64,000 nucleotides of DNA, taken from NCBI GenBank assembly GCA_001898035.1, contig MKRX01000001.1, positions 142,282 to 206,281 of the forward strand, given 5' to 3'. The translations under genes and the position numbers were made by a program. The notes under the pieces are model-generated. The model was not told where the DNA came from, searched no databases, and saw only the letters and a program-made list of their open reading frames with translations. Positions 54,539 to 60,425 of this stretch are shown here, piece after piece. Positions within the stretch are counted from its first letter, which is position 1. Every line of letters begins with the position of its first letter. The stretch comes from Armatimonadetes bacterium 55-13. Lineage in GTDB: Bacteria; Armatimonadota; Fimbriimonadia; Fimbriimonadales; Fimbriimonadaceae.

Positions 54539-55213
54539 ATGATTCTGGTTGCAGCCATGGTGCTTCTCTATCACCAATCTTCTCCCGGTCAGCTTTATTT
54601 GACCGGTGGAGGGAAAGTTCCAGGCGAGCTCTATAACAAGTTCATCGAAGCCTGTGGGAATGGCTTGATCGTTGTCCTGCCCCAGACTCAAGCGCGGCCT
54701 GAAAAGACGGGAGATGCGATCGTTCGCGAATTGAAAGAGCATGGAGCAAAGGAAGTATCGGTCCTGGCCTCATCTAAACCGAGTGAGTTTGAATTGAGCA
54801 CTTTTGCCGGAAGACTCGCTGCTGCAAAGGGGATTTGGGTTCCTTCGGGGGACCCCACTTTGTTCCTGGGGAGGTTCAGATCGGATTGGCTGCAAGTCAA
54901 TCTTGTCGACTCCGTGAAGAAAGGCGCCCATTTTTTTGGCAGCGGCGGGGGCGCCATGTTGCCCGGCGCGTTTATGATCACGGGACAGAACTCGGGGGGG
55001 CTCGCAAACACGACGGCCGGACTGTCATTGACGCCGTGGGTGATTGACACCTATTTTCGCGAACGTAAGCGAGAAAAGCGACTGTCGAGCGCTTGCGAGA
55101 TTGCTAAGTCCGCTGGAATCGGTCTGAGCGAAGCCGATTGGGTGGTTATCAAAGGAAACGAAGTGGTTGACCGAGGTGGCCAACCCGCGCTCGTTCCAAA
55201 GCCAAATTCTTAG
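54539..55213 (+). CDS. Cyanophycinase-fold (S51-like) protein lacking catalytic residues
   Basis: A 224-residue protein with a hydrophobic N-terminus (MILVAAMVLLYHQSS) and the S51/cyanophycinase fold: QLYLTGGG, then GLIVVLPQTQ, then AKGIWVPSGDP, then FGSGGGAML, then VIDTYFRERKREKRL. In active members the nucleophile sits in GTSAGA and a His in DxHF. Here these are GSGGGA, with Gly136 at the Ser position, and DTYF, with Tyr172 at the His position. The 'GGDQ' loop is SGDP. The protein is therefore probably not a serine peptidase and may have a binding role. Its stop overlaps the stop of the convergent gene by 2 nt. Confidence 0.78.
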   Translation: MILVAAMVLLYHQSSPGQLYLTGGGKVPGELYNKFIEACGNGLIVVLPQTQARPEKTGDAIVRELKEHGAKEVSVLASSKPSEFELSTFAGRLAAAKGIWVPSGDPTLFLGRFRSDWLQVNLVDSVKKGAHFFGSGGGAMLPGAFMITGQNSGGLANTTAGLSLTPWVIDTYFRERKREKRLSSACEIAKSAGIGLSEADWVVIKGNEVVDRGGQPALVPKPNS

Positions 55214-55917
55214 GCCATCTTGCTCGGCGGGACGTCCATACTGAAGAACTCAAGAACGTCGTCCAAGCGATCGCTTTCTTTCACACAGGCTTCGTTCATG
55301 GTCTCCTGCTTCGCCTTTGCTTCCTCAATTGCCTTCTTTTTGTCGGCGATCTGTTGTTCCAGCGTCATGATCTCGATTTCTGCACGAGCGCAGTAGTCGG
55401 TCGCTTGTTTGGTAAAGCTCTCGTTATAGGCGGCCAACGCCGCGAGTTTACGGGAAGCATCCGCTACGATCTGCTCCGTGGTCACCCCAAGGGTCTTGGC
55501 CATGGCGCCGAGCGTGACCTTGATCGTCGCTCGCTTGCTGTCGATGGGTAGATCGGCGGGGAGCGAGGCAAAGAGTTCAAGGATTTGTTCCGCGGTGAAC
55601 GGAGAGGTGGGTAGCTTGGCTAACGAGTAGATGGATTCGAAATTGATCGTGCCATCCGGCCGAACCACGGGCTCGGTGGGAGCGGTCGCTTCGGGAGCAG
55701 GCACGGGGGTTGCGACTTCTTCAGGAACCTTTATCTCATCAAGATTCGGTCCTGGCTGCTCTCGGACGATCTGCTCGATTGTCTTGGCTTTTGGAGCGGG
55801 CGCGGGTGCGGGACTGGGATCTTCCAGTGGGTCATAACCGGAAGTGGAAACCTTGTTTGGATCCTCTTCGAATTCAACAAATAGTCCAGCGGCTTTCTTC
55901 AGCGTTTCGCGAATCAT
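55210..55917 (-). CDS. Coiled-coil protein of unknown function, 235 aa
   Basis: A cytoplasmic protein that follows the 306-residue membrane protein gene by 3 bp. Residues 1-30 are basic-amphipathic (MIRETLKKAAGLFVEFEE), and residues 30-95 are a Pro/Ala/Glu-rich linker (PSPAPAPAPKAKTIEQIV). Residues 95-160 form a helical domain (FTAEQILELFASLPADLPID). Residues 165-225 are a coiled coil (EIEIMTLEQQIADKKKAIEE). The last residues are MDVPPSKMA. I do not recognise the family. The pairing with a membrane protein and the neighbouring ABC genes suggests a cytoplasmic partner of an envelope complex. Confidence 0.7.
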   Translation of the reverse strand: MIRETLKKAAGLFVEFEEDPNKVSTSGYDPLEDPSPAPAPAPKAKTIEQIVREQPGPNLDEIKVPEEVATPVPAPEATAPTEPVVRPDGTINFESIYSLAKLPTSPFTAEQILELFASLPADLPIDSKRATIKVTLGAMAKTLGVTTEQIVADASRKLAALAAYNESFTKQATDYCARAEIEIMTLEQQIADKKKAIEEAKAKQETMNEACVKESDRLDDVLEFFSMDVPPSKMA

Positions 55918-55920
55918 GAT

Positions 55921-56841
55921 TTATTTCTCGTTGGGAGCATTGTAGAGCTTTCGTGCGCCCGCTTCCAACGGCATCACGTCAAAGGGCGCCACATCAGCCA
56001 AGGTTTCGGTGAGGTTGTCCGTCTGGAAGACGACGTCATCAATATCGGCGAGAACCTGTTCGGGAGAGCGCGCTCGAATCTCATCGTTGATCAACCCGAA
56101 CGTGTCTTCCATCAGGCTCAACTGGTGCCCTAGGTTGATGAGGATTTCGCCCATTCGGACGACGTACTGACTTCTTCGTTGAAGGACCTCTTTTCGCTTC
56201 TCAAGAACCGCTTGGTTGTGGAGATTAGCGTCCTTTTGGAGCAGTTCGTCGATGTTATTGATCTCGTCCGTGTACTTCTCACTGATCATTCCGACAGTGT
56301 CCTGAATCCACTCGTCCCGCTCCGTCATATCCTCGATTTGGAACACGATTTTCTTTCCGGGACGCTTCTGGACCGGCGGAGGGGTGATGGGGCCGTGCTT
56401 AACTTCATCTAACACGGATCGGAGATAGTTCTCAAATTGAGTCTCTTTGCTTGCGAATAGCAAGAACTTCTCAAGAAGGTAGTCGAGCTTTCGAAGGACT
56501 TCACGGAAGATCAGCCGACCGTCTAGGGTCTGGCCACCAATCTGGTTGCGGACGGTTTCCAGGCGGGAAAATCTCGCTTGCACGGATGCGCCAAGGGTGG
56601 GGAAGACCTGATCCCTTAGCTTGCGTCGGCGATCAATGACCTCTTGGTCATATTTGACGGCAAGGCGTTTTTCAAACCACTTGGAATCTGGAACGAACAG
56701 AAGGTATGCAGCTTCAACGACCAACGCGCCCAGAATCGGCAACGGGTTGAGAAGAGCAGCGGAAAGAGCGGCGGCTCCAGCGAGTCCAACCGTGTTGTAA
56801 CCCTCCAGGAACGCCTCCTTCAGTTTGCTTGGTCTCTTCAT
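55921..56841 (-). CDS. Membrane-associated helical protein of unknown function, 306 aa
   Basis: Residues 14-52 hold two closely spaced hydrophobic segments (TVGLAGAAALSAALLNPLPI, then GALVVEAAYLLFV) that should form a membrane hairpin. The remaining 250 residues are almost entirely helical and charged (RFSRLETVRNQIGG, EKRKEVLQRRSQYVVRMGEI) and likely form coiled coils in the cytoplasm. TAGGCT lies 7 nt before the ATG, so this gene and the next may be started by their own leaderless promoter. They lie directly after the ABC ATPase gene on the same strand. The family is not recognised. Confidence 0.72.
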   Translation of the reverse strand: MKRPSKLKEAFLEGYNTVGLAGAAALSAALLNPLPILGALVVEAAYLLFVPDSKWFEKRLAVKYDQEVIDRRRKLRDQVFPTLGASVQARFSRLETVRNQIGGQTLDGRLIFREVLRKLDYLLEKFLLFASKETQFENYLRSVLDEVKHGPITPPPVQKRPGKKIVFQIEDMTERDEWIQDTVGMISEKYTDEINNIDELLQKDANLHNQAVLEKRKEVLQRRSQYVVRMGEILINLGHQLSLMEDTFGLINDEIRARSPEQVLADIDDVVFQTDNLTETLADVAPFDVMPLEAGARKLYNAPNEK

Positions 56842-56848
56842 CCTTGGT

Positions 56849-56854
56849 AGCCTA
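56849..56854 (-). promoter_or_regulatory. -10 box of a leaderless promoter (membrane helical protein)
   Basis: TAGGCT on the minus strand, then 7 nt (ACCAAGG), then the ATG at 56841. Confidence 0.45.
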
Positions 56855-56879
56855 ATTCGTGCATCATCCTACCCATTTG

Positions 56880-56903
56880 ACTGTAGGCTCCATATCCTAC
56901 AGT
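56880..56903. repeat. Inverted repeat at the ATPase gene's 3' end
   Basis: ACTGTAGG and CCTACAGT form a perfect 8-bp stem with an 8-nt loop. It overlaps the ATPase stop codon (56897-56899) and lies 26 bp upstream of the next gene's -10 box. It could be a weak terminator or attenuator, or an operator for the two-gene unit below. Confidence 0.45.
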
Positions 56904-57727
56904 TTCGGATAGATCGCCCGGATTTCTTTCATGAGATCGATGAAAGCCGGATCTTCGGTGACGCCGTGCCGCCAGGCCAATCCAAGGTCGATGAGATTAT
57001 AGTTCTTTTGAATACGTGCGCCGGGAATGATCTTGTCGTTTTCGTCACGGTCGCGGCCCAAAATCCAAACGGTATCGGCAACTTCCAGCGCAGCGGTAAT
57101 GTCGTGAGTGACGATAATGAATGTCTTCATCTCGTCGGCCGCCGCCATCTCATTGATCATGGTGATCACCCTCTCGATGGCGTTCAGATCGAGGCCCGAG
57201 AATGGCTCGTCCATCAGCAGGAAGTGCTCACTGCACATGAACTGTTGGGCGATCGCCACGCGCTGCCGCTGACCTCCTGAAAGCTGCACGGGATATTTCC
57301 GAGCGTGTTCTTCAAGATTGAACTCGGAGAGAATCTTGTCCGCTTTCTCCTTCGCTGCGGAACTGTCTAGACCCGCTTGCTTTCCGGCAACGACCAAGTT
57401 ACTGGCGACCGTTCGATGGCGGAAAAGGGGATAGTTCTGGGCAACGACACCGACTTCGCCCTTCACCACATATTTGGGCGGGTCACCGACCAAAACTTGG
57501 CCCGAATCGGGCTCATCAAGGCCAGCCAATATCCTAAAGAGGCGAGTTTTTCCAATGCCGGATGGGCCGAGGAGGGCCACCACTTGGCCTTGCTGCATCC
57601 CCGGTCGAACAATGTTTTTGACCTCGACATTGACGTCCCGAAGGATGAGCTTTCCGCCAAGAGTTAGGCTGACATTCTCAACCTTAAGGAGACACTCGCG
57701 AAGTTCGTAGTAAGCGGAGGCGCTCAT
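56897..57727 (-). CDS. ABC transporter ATPase, NitT/TauT type
   Basis: A 276-residue ATP-binding subunit. Walker A is GPSGIGKT, the signature is LSGGQRQRVAIAQQ, and Walker B is FLLMDEPFSGLD, followed by the switch His in IIVTHDITAA. It belongs to the nitrate/taurine/thiamine-precursor importer group by overall pattern. The ATG at 57727 overlaps the permease TGA (ATGA), so this start is firm; a longer reading inside the permease is not needed. An insert after Walker B and a C-terminal tail (GRDRDENDKIIPGARIQKNY) are longer than usual. It works with the permease upstream and the OmpA-fused binding protein. Confidence 0.88.
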   Translation of the reverse strand: MSASAYYELRECLLKVENVSLTLGGKLILRDVNVEVKNIVRPGMQQGQVVALLGPSGIGKTRLFRILAGLDEPDSGQVLVGDPPKYVVKGEVGVVAQNYPLFRHRTVASNLVVAGKQAGLDSSAAKEKADKILSEFNLEEHARKYPVQLSGGQRQRVAIAQQFMCSEHFLLMDEPFSGLDLNAIERVITMINEMAAADEMKTFIIVTHDITAALEVADTVWILGRDRDENDKIIPGARIQKNYNLIDLGLAWRHGVTEDPAFIDLMKEIRAIYPKL

Positions 57728-58593
57728 GATCCTTGTCGCTCCAGGGTGAGGTCGGCGTAGGGGCACACGAGCCGACGAATCACGCCGATCACGTAGTCCT
57801 GAAGCAGGGCAACGAGGAGAATAACGATCTGGATCGCGTAGATGGCGTCCATCTTCAGATACTTCTGTTGAGTCAACAAGAGAACACCGAGGCCACCTTC
57901 AGAGCGGACGAACCCCTCCACCATCGTCAGCATCAGCCAGGCGATGGCGGCGTTTTGTCTCATGACTTCAAAGGCTTGGTCTGCCGTTCCAACGATGACG
58001 ACTTCCCAAACCACTCGCCATTCGCTCATTCGAAGGGTTCGGGCATGATCGAACGATTCTTTGGGGATAGAGGCGACGACCGATGCCATCGATGTGATGA
58101 AAAAGACGGTCATGCCAAAGACCATCATGTAGAGTTTCAGGGCATATCCGCCAGCGCCCATGAGGGTGAAGACAAAGCTGAATCCAACTAAGCTCAAGTA
58201 CCGCATCTTTGAGACGGCCTGAGCAATTGGTCGGAAGAAGGGCATGACGGTGAAATAGCTCAGCAGGAGAGCGATGCAAACGGTGATCAGCAGAGCGTGG
58301 AGCACCAGTTTGAAGCTGACCCAGAGGTCTGTCGCGAGTCCTCTTTCCTTCCACAAGATCACGAACGCGTGCCAGACATCGGCTGGTTTTGGAAGGACCT
58401 CATACGGAGACGCCATCCAAATCACGATCGCGGCCACGATTTGAATCACGATGATGACTCGAAGCGTGTTTGCCGAGAGCGCTTGGTTGGGGAGGAAAGC
58501 GGCGAAGAACGGATGGGTCCGTTTCTTTTTGGGAGGGGCAAGGGTTGCCCCCGGAAGGGGATTCCCTCCGGGGGTTTGAGTGACGTCCGCCAT
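57724..58593 (-). CDS. ABC transporter permease, NitT/TauT type
   Basis: A 289-residue permease with a 45-residue Pro/Lys-rich cytoplasmic start (GATLAPPKKKRTHPFF) and about six membrane helices. The loop that contacts the ATPase resembles the EAA motif: SFDHARTLRMSEWRVVWEV. It matches nitrate/sulfonate-type permeases in topology. The gene starts 2 bp after the binding-protein stop and overlaps the ATPase start, so the three are one operon. The transported solute cannot be read from the sequence. Confidence 0.85.
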   Translation of the reverse strand: MADVTQTPGGNPLPGATLAPPKKKRTHPFFAAFLPNQALSANTLRVIIVIQIVAAIVIWMASPYEVLPKPADVWHAFVILWKERGLATDLWVSFKLVLHALLITVCIALLLSYFTVMPFFRPIAQAVSKMRYLSLVGFSFVFTLMGAGGYALKLYMMVFGMTVFFITSMASVVASIPKESFDHARTLRMSEWRVVWEVVIVGTADQAFEVMRQNAAIAWLMLTMVEGFVRSEGGLGVLLLTQQKYLKMDAIYAIQIVILLVALLQDYVIGVIRRLVCPYADLTLERQGS

Positions 58594-58595
58594 GT

Positions 58596-60425
58596 TTAGC
58601 CGCCCGAGCGGATGACGATCTCCACACGTCGGTTAATAGCCTTATTCTTGTCCGAGGTGTTCGGCACCAATGGATTCTGCTGACCGTGGGCGAAGACCGA
58701 GATACGGCCCTTGGGGAAGTTCAAAGGCAGTCTCTTTTCCAGCCAGCTCTTTACCGCGAACGCTCGCGATTCGGACAAATTCATGTTGCTGTCCGGACTC
58801 CCAACATTGTCGGTATGACCGTGAATTTCGACGGTTGTGTTACTGGCGATGACCAACTGTCGCTTCAGTTTCTCCAACTGCGAACCCGCCGCTGGCGAAA
58901 ACTGAGCGGAACCCGTGTTGAATGGAATGTTCATCTTAAGGGTCGAGATCTTCTTGCCACCACCAGCTGGAGCCATGGTCGGGATATCGAGGCGAGTTAC
59001 CGCTTCCTTCCGGGCACCGGCTTCCTTGTTCATGGCAAGCAAGCCCTTCAGGTAGCTCGTATCCAGAATTTCTCCTACCGCGTCATAGCGAGGGAAGTCG
59101 TGTGGATACTGCTGAACCAGGATGTCTCCGAACGCCGAGTAAGTTTCCGCGAACAGGTTTGCACCACCTTGGATCAATCCGAAGGTCAAGAGACCGTCGG
59201 TCAAGTCATTGACCGAGGAACCTCCAAGTTCAACCGCCAACCCTTGCTTATCCTTCTCGGTCGTACCCTTGAAGTACTTCGCCCAGTAGTCAGCGTCGGC
59301 ATCCTTCTCGCCAAACACATCGGCGACGATTTCGGCGCCACGTCGGAAGGCCGCATCGCTGGACTTGATTGCTTTTCCACCTTCATAAAACGCAGCAAGC
59401 ATCTCCTGGACATAGGGACGGTTATCTCGCATCCACTTGTCAATTCCGATAATGGTGCAAGGCATTTGGTAGTTGTATTCCTTGGTAGAAACAATGGAGA
59501 CCAGTCCGCCTTTTTCTTGCGCCACCTGTACGTCACCCGGAGTCCAGGTAACCACGCCGTCGACGCGAATCTTTTTCATCTGACCCGTCGGCTTACCATT
59601 ACGCACCACCGGTCGAGTCTCTTCGTAACCGGCGATGTACTTTTGGCAAGCATCGATATAGTCGTTGGCGGCAACCCAGTTCAAGGCATCGGGATCGTAG
59701 GTCTTCTCATCGGGATTGTTTTTCAGACCGTTGTCACCCAGCCATTTCATGGCGATGTTCCAGTCGCCGTCTCGGAGGTAGCCGGCCACCACGCCACCCT
59801 TGGACGCGCCGGGATTGGTCTTCCAAGACTCGGGACCCATGAACTTGTCCTCGCCACGGCTGTAGCCAATGCAGCCAATAACCTTGGCTTTATAGTCGGA
59901 TCCAAGCTTTTTCAGCGATTCATTCACTGCGGTCAAGAACTGGGGGGCGCCATCGCCCATGATCGCGACGAAGTGAGCGCCGTTTGAGGGGTTCTTGCTT
60001 CCGCCTTTGAATTGGGTAGCGAAGGCAATCAGCGCCTCTTGCATCTTGGTGGCATCGTCTTGGCGAGTGAACTTCAGATTCACCCCGTGCTTGGCCATGA
60101 TGCTGCCCTCGGTTGTCTCGCGACCGCCGTTGGAGAACATCGCGCCCATTTGAGCATTCCAAGCCCAGTGAAGGAATCGAATCTGCGGCTTGTTCGAATT
60201 GGCGAGGTCCGTTCCCGGCATCGAAACGTTGGTGCTGTTTCCGCCATCGGTTCGAACATCTCCGCCGTTGGGGAGATTAACCTTCGTTGGAACTGACGAG
60301 GCATCGGTGACATTGCCCGGGGCCAGGGCGCTTAGGCCACCACCTTTATATATCTTGTATCCGCCAAAAGCGGCGCCAATGATGAGAAGCAGAACCACTA
60401 TCTTGCCCGAGGCTTTTAAACGCAT
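58596..60425 (-). CDS. Membrane-anchored solute-binding protein fused to an OmpA peptidoglycan-binding domain
   Basis: A 609-residue fusion. The ATG at 60425 (MRLKASGKIVVLLLIIG) has GGGAG upstream and gives an uncleaved N-terminal anchor. Residues 80-470 form a NitT/TauT-like solute-binding domain (QIRFLHWAWNAQMG, VDGVVTWTPGDVQVAQEKGG, AMKWLGDNG). Residues 485-609 are an OmpA C-terminal domain (IPFNTGSAQFSP, then VEIHGHTDNVGSPDSNMNLS, then ESRAFAVKSWLEK). The Asp in GHTDN and the Arg in SRAF that bind peptidoglycan are kept. The receptor is thus tied to both the inner membrane and the cell wall. It is the first gene of an operon with the permease and ATPase. Confidence 0.88.
   Translation of the reverse strand: MRLKASGKIVVLLLIIGAAFGGYKIYKGGGLSALAPGNVTDASSVPTKVNLPNGGDVRTDGGNSTNVSMPGTDLANSNKPQIRFLHWAWNAQMGAMFSNGGRETTEGSIMAKHGVNLKFTRQDDATKMQEALIAFATQFKGGSKNPSNGAHFVAIMGDGAPQFLTAVNESLKKLGSDYKAKVIGCIGYSRGEDKFMGPESWKTNPGASKGGVVAGYLRDGDWNIAMKWLGDNGLKNNPDEKTYDPDALNWVAANDYIDACQKYIAGYEETRPVVRNGKPTGQMKKIRVDGVVTWTPGDVQVAQEKGGLVSIVSTKEYNYQMPCTIIGIDKWMRDNRPYVQEMLAAFYEGGKAIKSSDAAFRRGAEIVADVFGEKDADADYWAKYFKGTTEKDKQGLAVELGGSSVNDLTDGLLTFGLIQGGANLFAETYSAFGDILVQQYPHDFPRYDAVGEILDTSYLKGLLAMNKEAGARKEAVTRLDIPTMAPAGGGKKISTLKMNIPFNTGSAQFSPAAGSQLEKLKRQLVIASNTTVEIHGHTDNVGSPDSNMNLSESRAFAVKSWLEKRLPLNFPKGRISVFAHGQQNPLVPNTSDKNKAINRRVEIVIRSGG

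Follow-up and report, generated by a model that had tools for sequence, protein, structure and literature searches.

A predicted wall-tethered ABC transporter operon with two helical partner proteins in Armatimonadota, other bacteria and huge phages, possibly coupled to PspA-type envelope maintenance

The stretch of DNA analysed here (64,000 nucleotides, hereafter the window) comes from a genome of 4.5 Mb in 27 contigs, and its nearest relatives in our scans carry the labels Fimbriimonadaceae and Armatimonadota. Five minus-strand open reading frames at 55210-60425(-) make up an ABC/SBP-OmpA operon encoding, in this order, a solute-binding protein fused to an OmpA domain (SBP-OmpA), a permease, an ATPase, a helical protein with a membrane hairpin (HP) and a coiled-coil protein (CC). 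The domains are those that a preliminary description of this DNA had assigned, and most of its spacings hold as well: 2 nt lie between the SBP and permease genes, an ATGA overlap (57727-57724) joins permease and ATPase, and HP is 3 nt away from CC. The gap between ATPase and HP, however, measures 55 nt (56842-56896), wider than the interval 56880-56903 had implied; no terminator-like site was seen within it. A potassium-channel gene with two TrkA_N domains (window:60655-62325) diverges from the operon, and also adjoins it in G001 and G002, two genomes of the window's genus. The minus-strand reading frame at window:62322-63869 looks, by eye, like a LutB-LutC fusion of lactate utilisation, in which the C-terminal part is LutC-like and the remainder a LutB-type iron-sulfur protein.

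The SBP-OmpA gene (58596..60425, minus strand) encodes 609 amino acids from the ATG at 60425, which is also the start position in the closest homologue (L024). Residues 8-24 form a hydrophobic anchor without lipobox cysteine, IVVLLLIIGAAFGGYKI, recognised by eye as a predicted N-terminal transmembrane segment (approximately 60354..60404, minus strand); the homologues of alignment A1 are laid out similarly. The OmpA domain lies at 58629..58922 on the minus strand (PF00691, E=8e-18; Pfam match residues 537-634). In OmpA proteins, an aspartate and an arginine 15 residues apart constitute the pattern for binding diaminopimelate-type peptidoglycan. Sequence and matches to solved OmpA-type domains alike place this ligand-binding pair in the window protein, at D574 and R589, both invariant in A1. 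The presence of the N-terminal helix together with the C-terminal domain supports the earlier proposal of a receptor built to be held by both inner membrane and wall, wall binding being predicted. The arrangement recalls wall anchors of the MotB/TolR/Pal type, which share with it the single N-terminal membrane helix (MotB, TolR) or the C-terminal OmpA domain (MotB, Pal). Unlike these, the window receptor carries a large solute-binding domain between the two, and the proton channel is replaced by an ABC unit. Just one further OmpA-domain protein turned up in the genome (L116:4130-6394, on contig C11 of G000); it is MotB-like and adjoins a MotA-like gene. A search of plasmids returned matches to the OmpA domain only. 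In one metagenome-assembled genome (G036), the SBP gene at L025:2723-4546 is broken by in-frame stops, representing either a pseudogene or an assembly error.

The permease (57724..58593, minus strand) is type I importer-like. Its match to BPD_transp_1 (PF00528, E=3e-5) reaches 24.3 bits, slightly below the cut-off of 26.4, and the residues of its modified EAA-type loop are conserved among 84 homologues. The ATPase (56897..57727, minus strand) matches ABC_tran above the cut-off (PF00005, 101 bits, E=9e-29) with every catalytic motif intact, the Walker A and B, Q, signature and H motifs being conserved in 81 homologues. The layout of SBP, permease and ATPase is that of NitT/TauT (NMT1-like) importers, the family name used in the preliminary description, and the SBP of a variant cassette of relatives (variant A, see below) has a recognisable NMT1 domain (E=8e-9). 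For the window copy the label is loose: its SBP domain is weakly NMT1-like but stays below the NMT1_2 Pfam cut-off (15.6 versus 24.7 bits), and the predicted double tethering and the addition of HP and CC set the system apart from such importers.

Against Pfam, NCBIfam and PHROGs, HP (55921..56841, minus strand) and CC (55210..55917, minus strand) gave weak coiled-coil matches and nothing else; the window copy of HP had no Pfam match, and no PspA or Snf7 match was obtained across 37 members of the family. AlphaFold2, supplied with 37 homologues for HP and 30 for CC, returned a confident HP model (pLDDT 87.9, pTM 0.80) in which a membrane hairpin (helices 13-29 and 33-51, hydrophobic in sequence; 56689..56805, minus strand) precedes six long helices, predicted to be cytosolic. 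The CC model (pLDDT 83.8) consists of a short N-terminal helix, a disordered linker, a small helical domain and a C-terminal helix of about 80 residues (147-226; 55240..55479, minus strand). With Foldseek, HP had no significant match in the PDB or among viral structures, and CC had none in the PDB. The PDB entries ranked highest for HP, all of them weak matches, are helical bundles, BAR-type or designed, and the ESCRT-III fold is absent among its listed matches. HP occupies the position of the transmembrane (TM)-bearing Snf7 and has a hairpin; its alignment by hhalign to PspA/Snf7 is weak. Membership of HP in the ESCRT-III/PspA superfamily is thus unsupported by Pfam, hhalign and Foldseek, and Pfam scans gave no support for a relationship of HP or CC to TelA/XpaC (toxic-anion) proteins. 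HP2, a PspA-related hairpin protein (PF04012 in 7/16 members, best E=1e-9; hhalign 91.5), takes the place of HP in Bacteroidota, phages and part of the Acidobacteriota. CC is homologous to CC2 of phages and Bacteroidota (hhalign probability 97.3, E=1.8e-11).

When about 85,000 species genomes were searched with the SBP alignment, 262 relatives of the fusion came up, which is therefore not peculiar to this contig; the best 80 of the 262 were analysed. Full flanks were available at 48 loci from Armatimonadota, Acidobacteriota, Myxococcota and Bacteroidota; in counts seeded on SBP, with profiles built from the same loci, the permease was present in 48/48, the ATPase in 47/48, HP or HP2 in 43/48 and CC in 39/48. 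The reverse search, with the window HP, detected HP in 15 of 101 relatives, mostly beside the SBP-OmpA/ABC set. There were two exceptions: in G017 (L138) HP and CC lie 14 kb from the ABC set, and in G090 (L146, Armatimonadota) HP stands beside PspA with no ABC genes. Elsewhere the SBP looks broken or divergent (G092), or the locus is cut by contig ends (G002 and G094). Gene order differs among lineages, so that the linkage is more than the inheritance of one arrangement. The linkage of the coiled-coil genes to the ABC genes, postulated earlier from a single locus, thus extends across phyla.

Three forms of the set can be distinguished. Form I, that of the window (SBP-permease-ATPase-HP-CC), occurs in Armatimonadota and others. 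Form II, an extended form of Acidobacteriota, reads CC-PspA-SBP-permease-ATPase-HP-AAA+, with PspA confirmed by PF04012 (E=3e-15, e.g., in L040). Form III, CC2-HP2-SBP-permease-ATPase, is that of Hymenobacter, Xanthocytophaga, part of the Acidobacteriota and the majority of phages. A further gene separates HP2 from SBP in Xanthocytophaga flavus (L069:7838-8869); its product is Ppx/GppA-like and has a membrane helix at its N-terminus.

The ABC part of the operon is itself variable. Of the two genomes of the window's genus, each about 75% complete, G002 has the same ABC type (identity 71% for SBP, 84% for HP). G001 has a very distant cassette at the same place, its SBP, permease and ATPase being only 22%, 22% and 33% identical to those of the window; this cassette is flanked by a potassium-channel gene and an HP gene, the latter cut by the contig end, which hides any CC gene beyond it, that are 62% and 78% identical to their window counterparts. 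Cassette A is also present in G018 and G025, where both HP and CC are found. An HP tree of 21 rows requires the cassette label to change five times, and supported branches force at least four of these changes. Judged by these label changes and by the G001 layout, the ABC cassette is exchanged in place while HP stays. Together with the conserved cross-phylum linkage, retention of HP when the cassette is swapped supports a genuine partnership of HP and CC with the ABC genes and argues against adjacency by chance.

The operon had been put forward as a candidate for an undescribed system, a claim that has to be withdrawn: a comparative-genomics study of 2024 had already reported the operon type. 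According to the main text of Ravi et al. (2024; PMC11237479), an ABC transporter with a PBPB-OmpA protein is encoded in longer operons together with PspA, an AAA+ ATPase and Snf7 homologues that bear a TM segment (example OGG56892.1), and a link between membrane remodelling and transport is proposed there independently. As far as that text goes, the description covers our form II; it is silent on the minimal form of five genes, on the exchange of the ABC cassette in place and on the occurrence in huge phages. The window operon agrees with the operons described there in combining an ABC ATPase, a permease and an SBP-OmpA fusion with membrane-associated helical proteins, and the extended acidobacterial homologues also carry PspA and AAA+. 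In contrast to those operons, the window's has neither, and its HP is without detectable similarity to Snf7 or PspA. None of the five genes matched PF04012, the genome's single PspA lying on another contig, and the AAA proteins found elsewhere in the genome are distant (25-29% identical). In the main texts that our search covered, open-access papers and a minority of subscription papers, we found nothing on the five-gene form or on its phage copies.

What is new here is the presence of the fusion, detected with the SBP alignment, on 54 viral contigs, nearly all with the five-gene set. Where full flanks were available (n=42), permease and ATPase were present in 42/42, HP2 or HP in 41/42 and CC in 40/42. 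T4 gp23-type capsid genes were identified in 9 of 18 contigs tested (E to 1.7e-95), 8 of the 9 also having an over-cut-off terminase match; by these matches, the capsid-bearing contigs (234-462 kb) are real huge phages. One contig, L161 (IMGVR_UViG_3300044957_000763, 478,840 bp), whose viral status is based on its IMG/VR class, has the window form in the window order, with an SBP 55% identical. In the SBP tree, most phage copies group with HP2-type acidobacterial loci. The tree places the window with Armatimonadota, and a phage origin of its ABC genes was therefore rejected.

How might these elements work together? We give an even chance to a reading in which the five gene products form one inner-membrane complex, an ABC sensor or transporter coupled to envelope maintenance of the PspA/ESCRT-III type. 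One could envision a wall-tethered ABC unit coupled to a scaffold of helical proteins at the cytosolic side of the membrane. The N-terminal helix of the SBP would fix its inner membrane end and the OmpA domain its wall end, so that docking of the SBP on the permease might be confined to places where membrane and wall lie near each other. Ligand, or the state of the wall, sensed by the SBP would then set ATP hydrolysis by the ABC core, and hydrolysis in turn would control or recruit the hairpin-anchored HP and CC; this is the direction of signalling that we infer. HP and CC would organise the membrane with PspA-type proteins, encoded within the operon in the extended forms and presumably drawn from elsewhere in the genome in the window's organism.

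The link to envelope state, suggested in the preliminary description, seems to us the most reasonable reading because of the PspA and AAA+ ATPase genes in the extended operons. We count in favour of the presumed maintenance function the linkage of the fusion and the ABC genes to HP and CC across several phyla and huge phages, the outcome of the reverse search with HP, the in-place exchange of the ABC part with HP kept, the independent proposal of Ravi et al. and a set of PspA associations, namely the acidobacterial operons with PspA and AAA+, the PspA-related HP2 and the HP gene beside PspA at L146. Counted against it are the failure to detect PspA, Snf7 or ESCRT-III relationships in the window HP and the lack of PspA and AAA+ in the window operon, the genome's only PspA being unlinked. 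Co-occurrence of PspA with the system was dropped as evidence: PspA is near universal (92/101 relatives), which makes it uninformative. A highly conserved SBP and an intact import machinery, also counted against envelope maintenance, would equally fit plain solute uptake.

That last point is the core of the main alternative, to which we assign a substantial minority chance: an ordinary ABC importer of type I that takes up one conserved solute. Its receptor would be tethered so as to stay near the permease, and HP and CC would do no more than cluster or position the transporter. An importer would explain why the ATPase motifs and permease loop are intact and why SBP identity across phyla remains at about 50%, many residues being invariant (alignment A1); the NMT1 domain in the exchanged variant A is what one would expect if substrate specificity had changed. 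It accounts less readily for the persistence of HP through the exchange of the transporter, for the addition of PspA and AAA+ in extended operons and for the retention of all five genes by phages, and no constant metabolic neighbour was seen. We regard as improbable a mechanotransmission device in the manner of FtsEX or Tol-Pal, in which no solute is moved and ATP hydrolysis generates tension or activates an enzyme between wall and membrane. A receptor predicted to be tethered to both layers and helical partners predicted on the inner face would suit such a device, yet the permease matches the importer family BPD_transp_1 rather than FtsX, the operon lacks a MotA/TolQ-type proton channel, and no linked wall hydrolase gene was seen. 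That the helical genes lie next to a transporter operon by chance, or only within particular lineages, as their separation from the ABC genes in G017 and G090 might suggest, is scarcely credible and is refuted by the linkage counts across phyla and phages despite changing gene order.

If the envelope-maintenance reading is right, a wall-reading receptor links ABC transport chemistry to bacterial membrane upkeep of the ESCRT-III type, and a device of this kind travels with many very large phages. It is tempting to speculate, though we lean slightly against it, that huge phages use the wall-tethered ABC unit, a PspA-like anchored protein and a coiled-coil protein during infection, either to stabilise or reshape the inner membrane of the host or to keep other phages out. 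In several phyla, bacteria would retain this device for the upkeep of their own envelope, its ABC part being swappable between two very distant cassettes. The role of PspA-associated transporters becomes directly testable with a defined five-gene unit in bacteria that are culturable and harmless (Hymenobacter, Minicystis). A defence system proper was considered and rejected: PADLOC anti-phage defence models gave generic ABC and OmpA-domain matches only (e.g., Mad3, ZorB) and no system-specific match. A second, divergent five-gene set occurs in a related Fimbriimonadaceae genome, G084, on contig C5 at 200-430 kb (L145, L148-L155). No T4 gp23 capsid gene match was obtained in G084, so that a prophage at this place is putative; the stretch nevertheless resembles a huge phage or prophage in its many short phage-like genes and in a GC content of about 0.53, compared with 0.60 at 600 kb.
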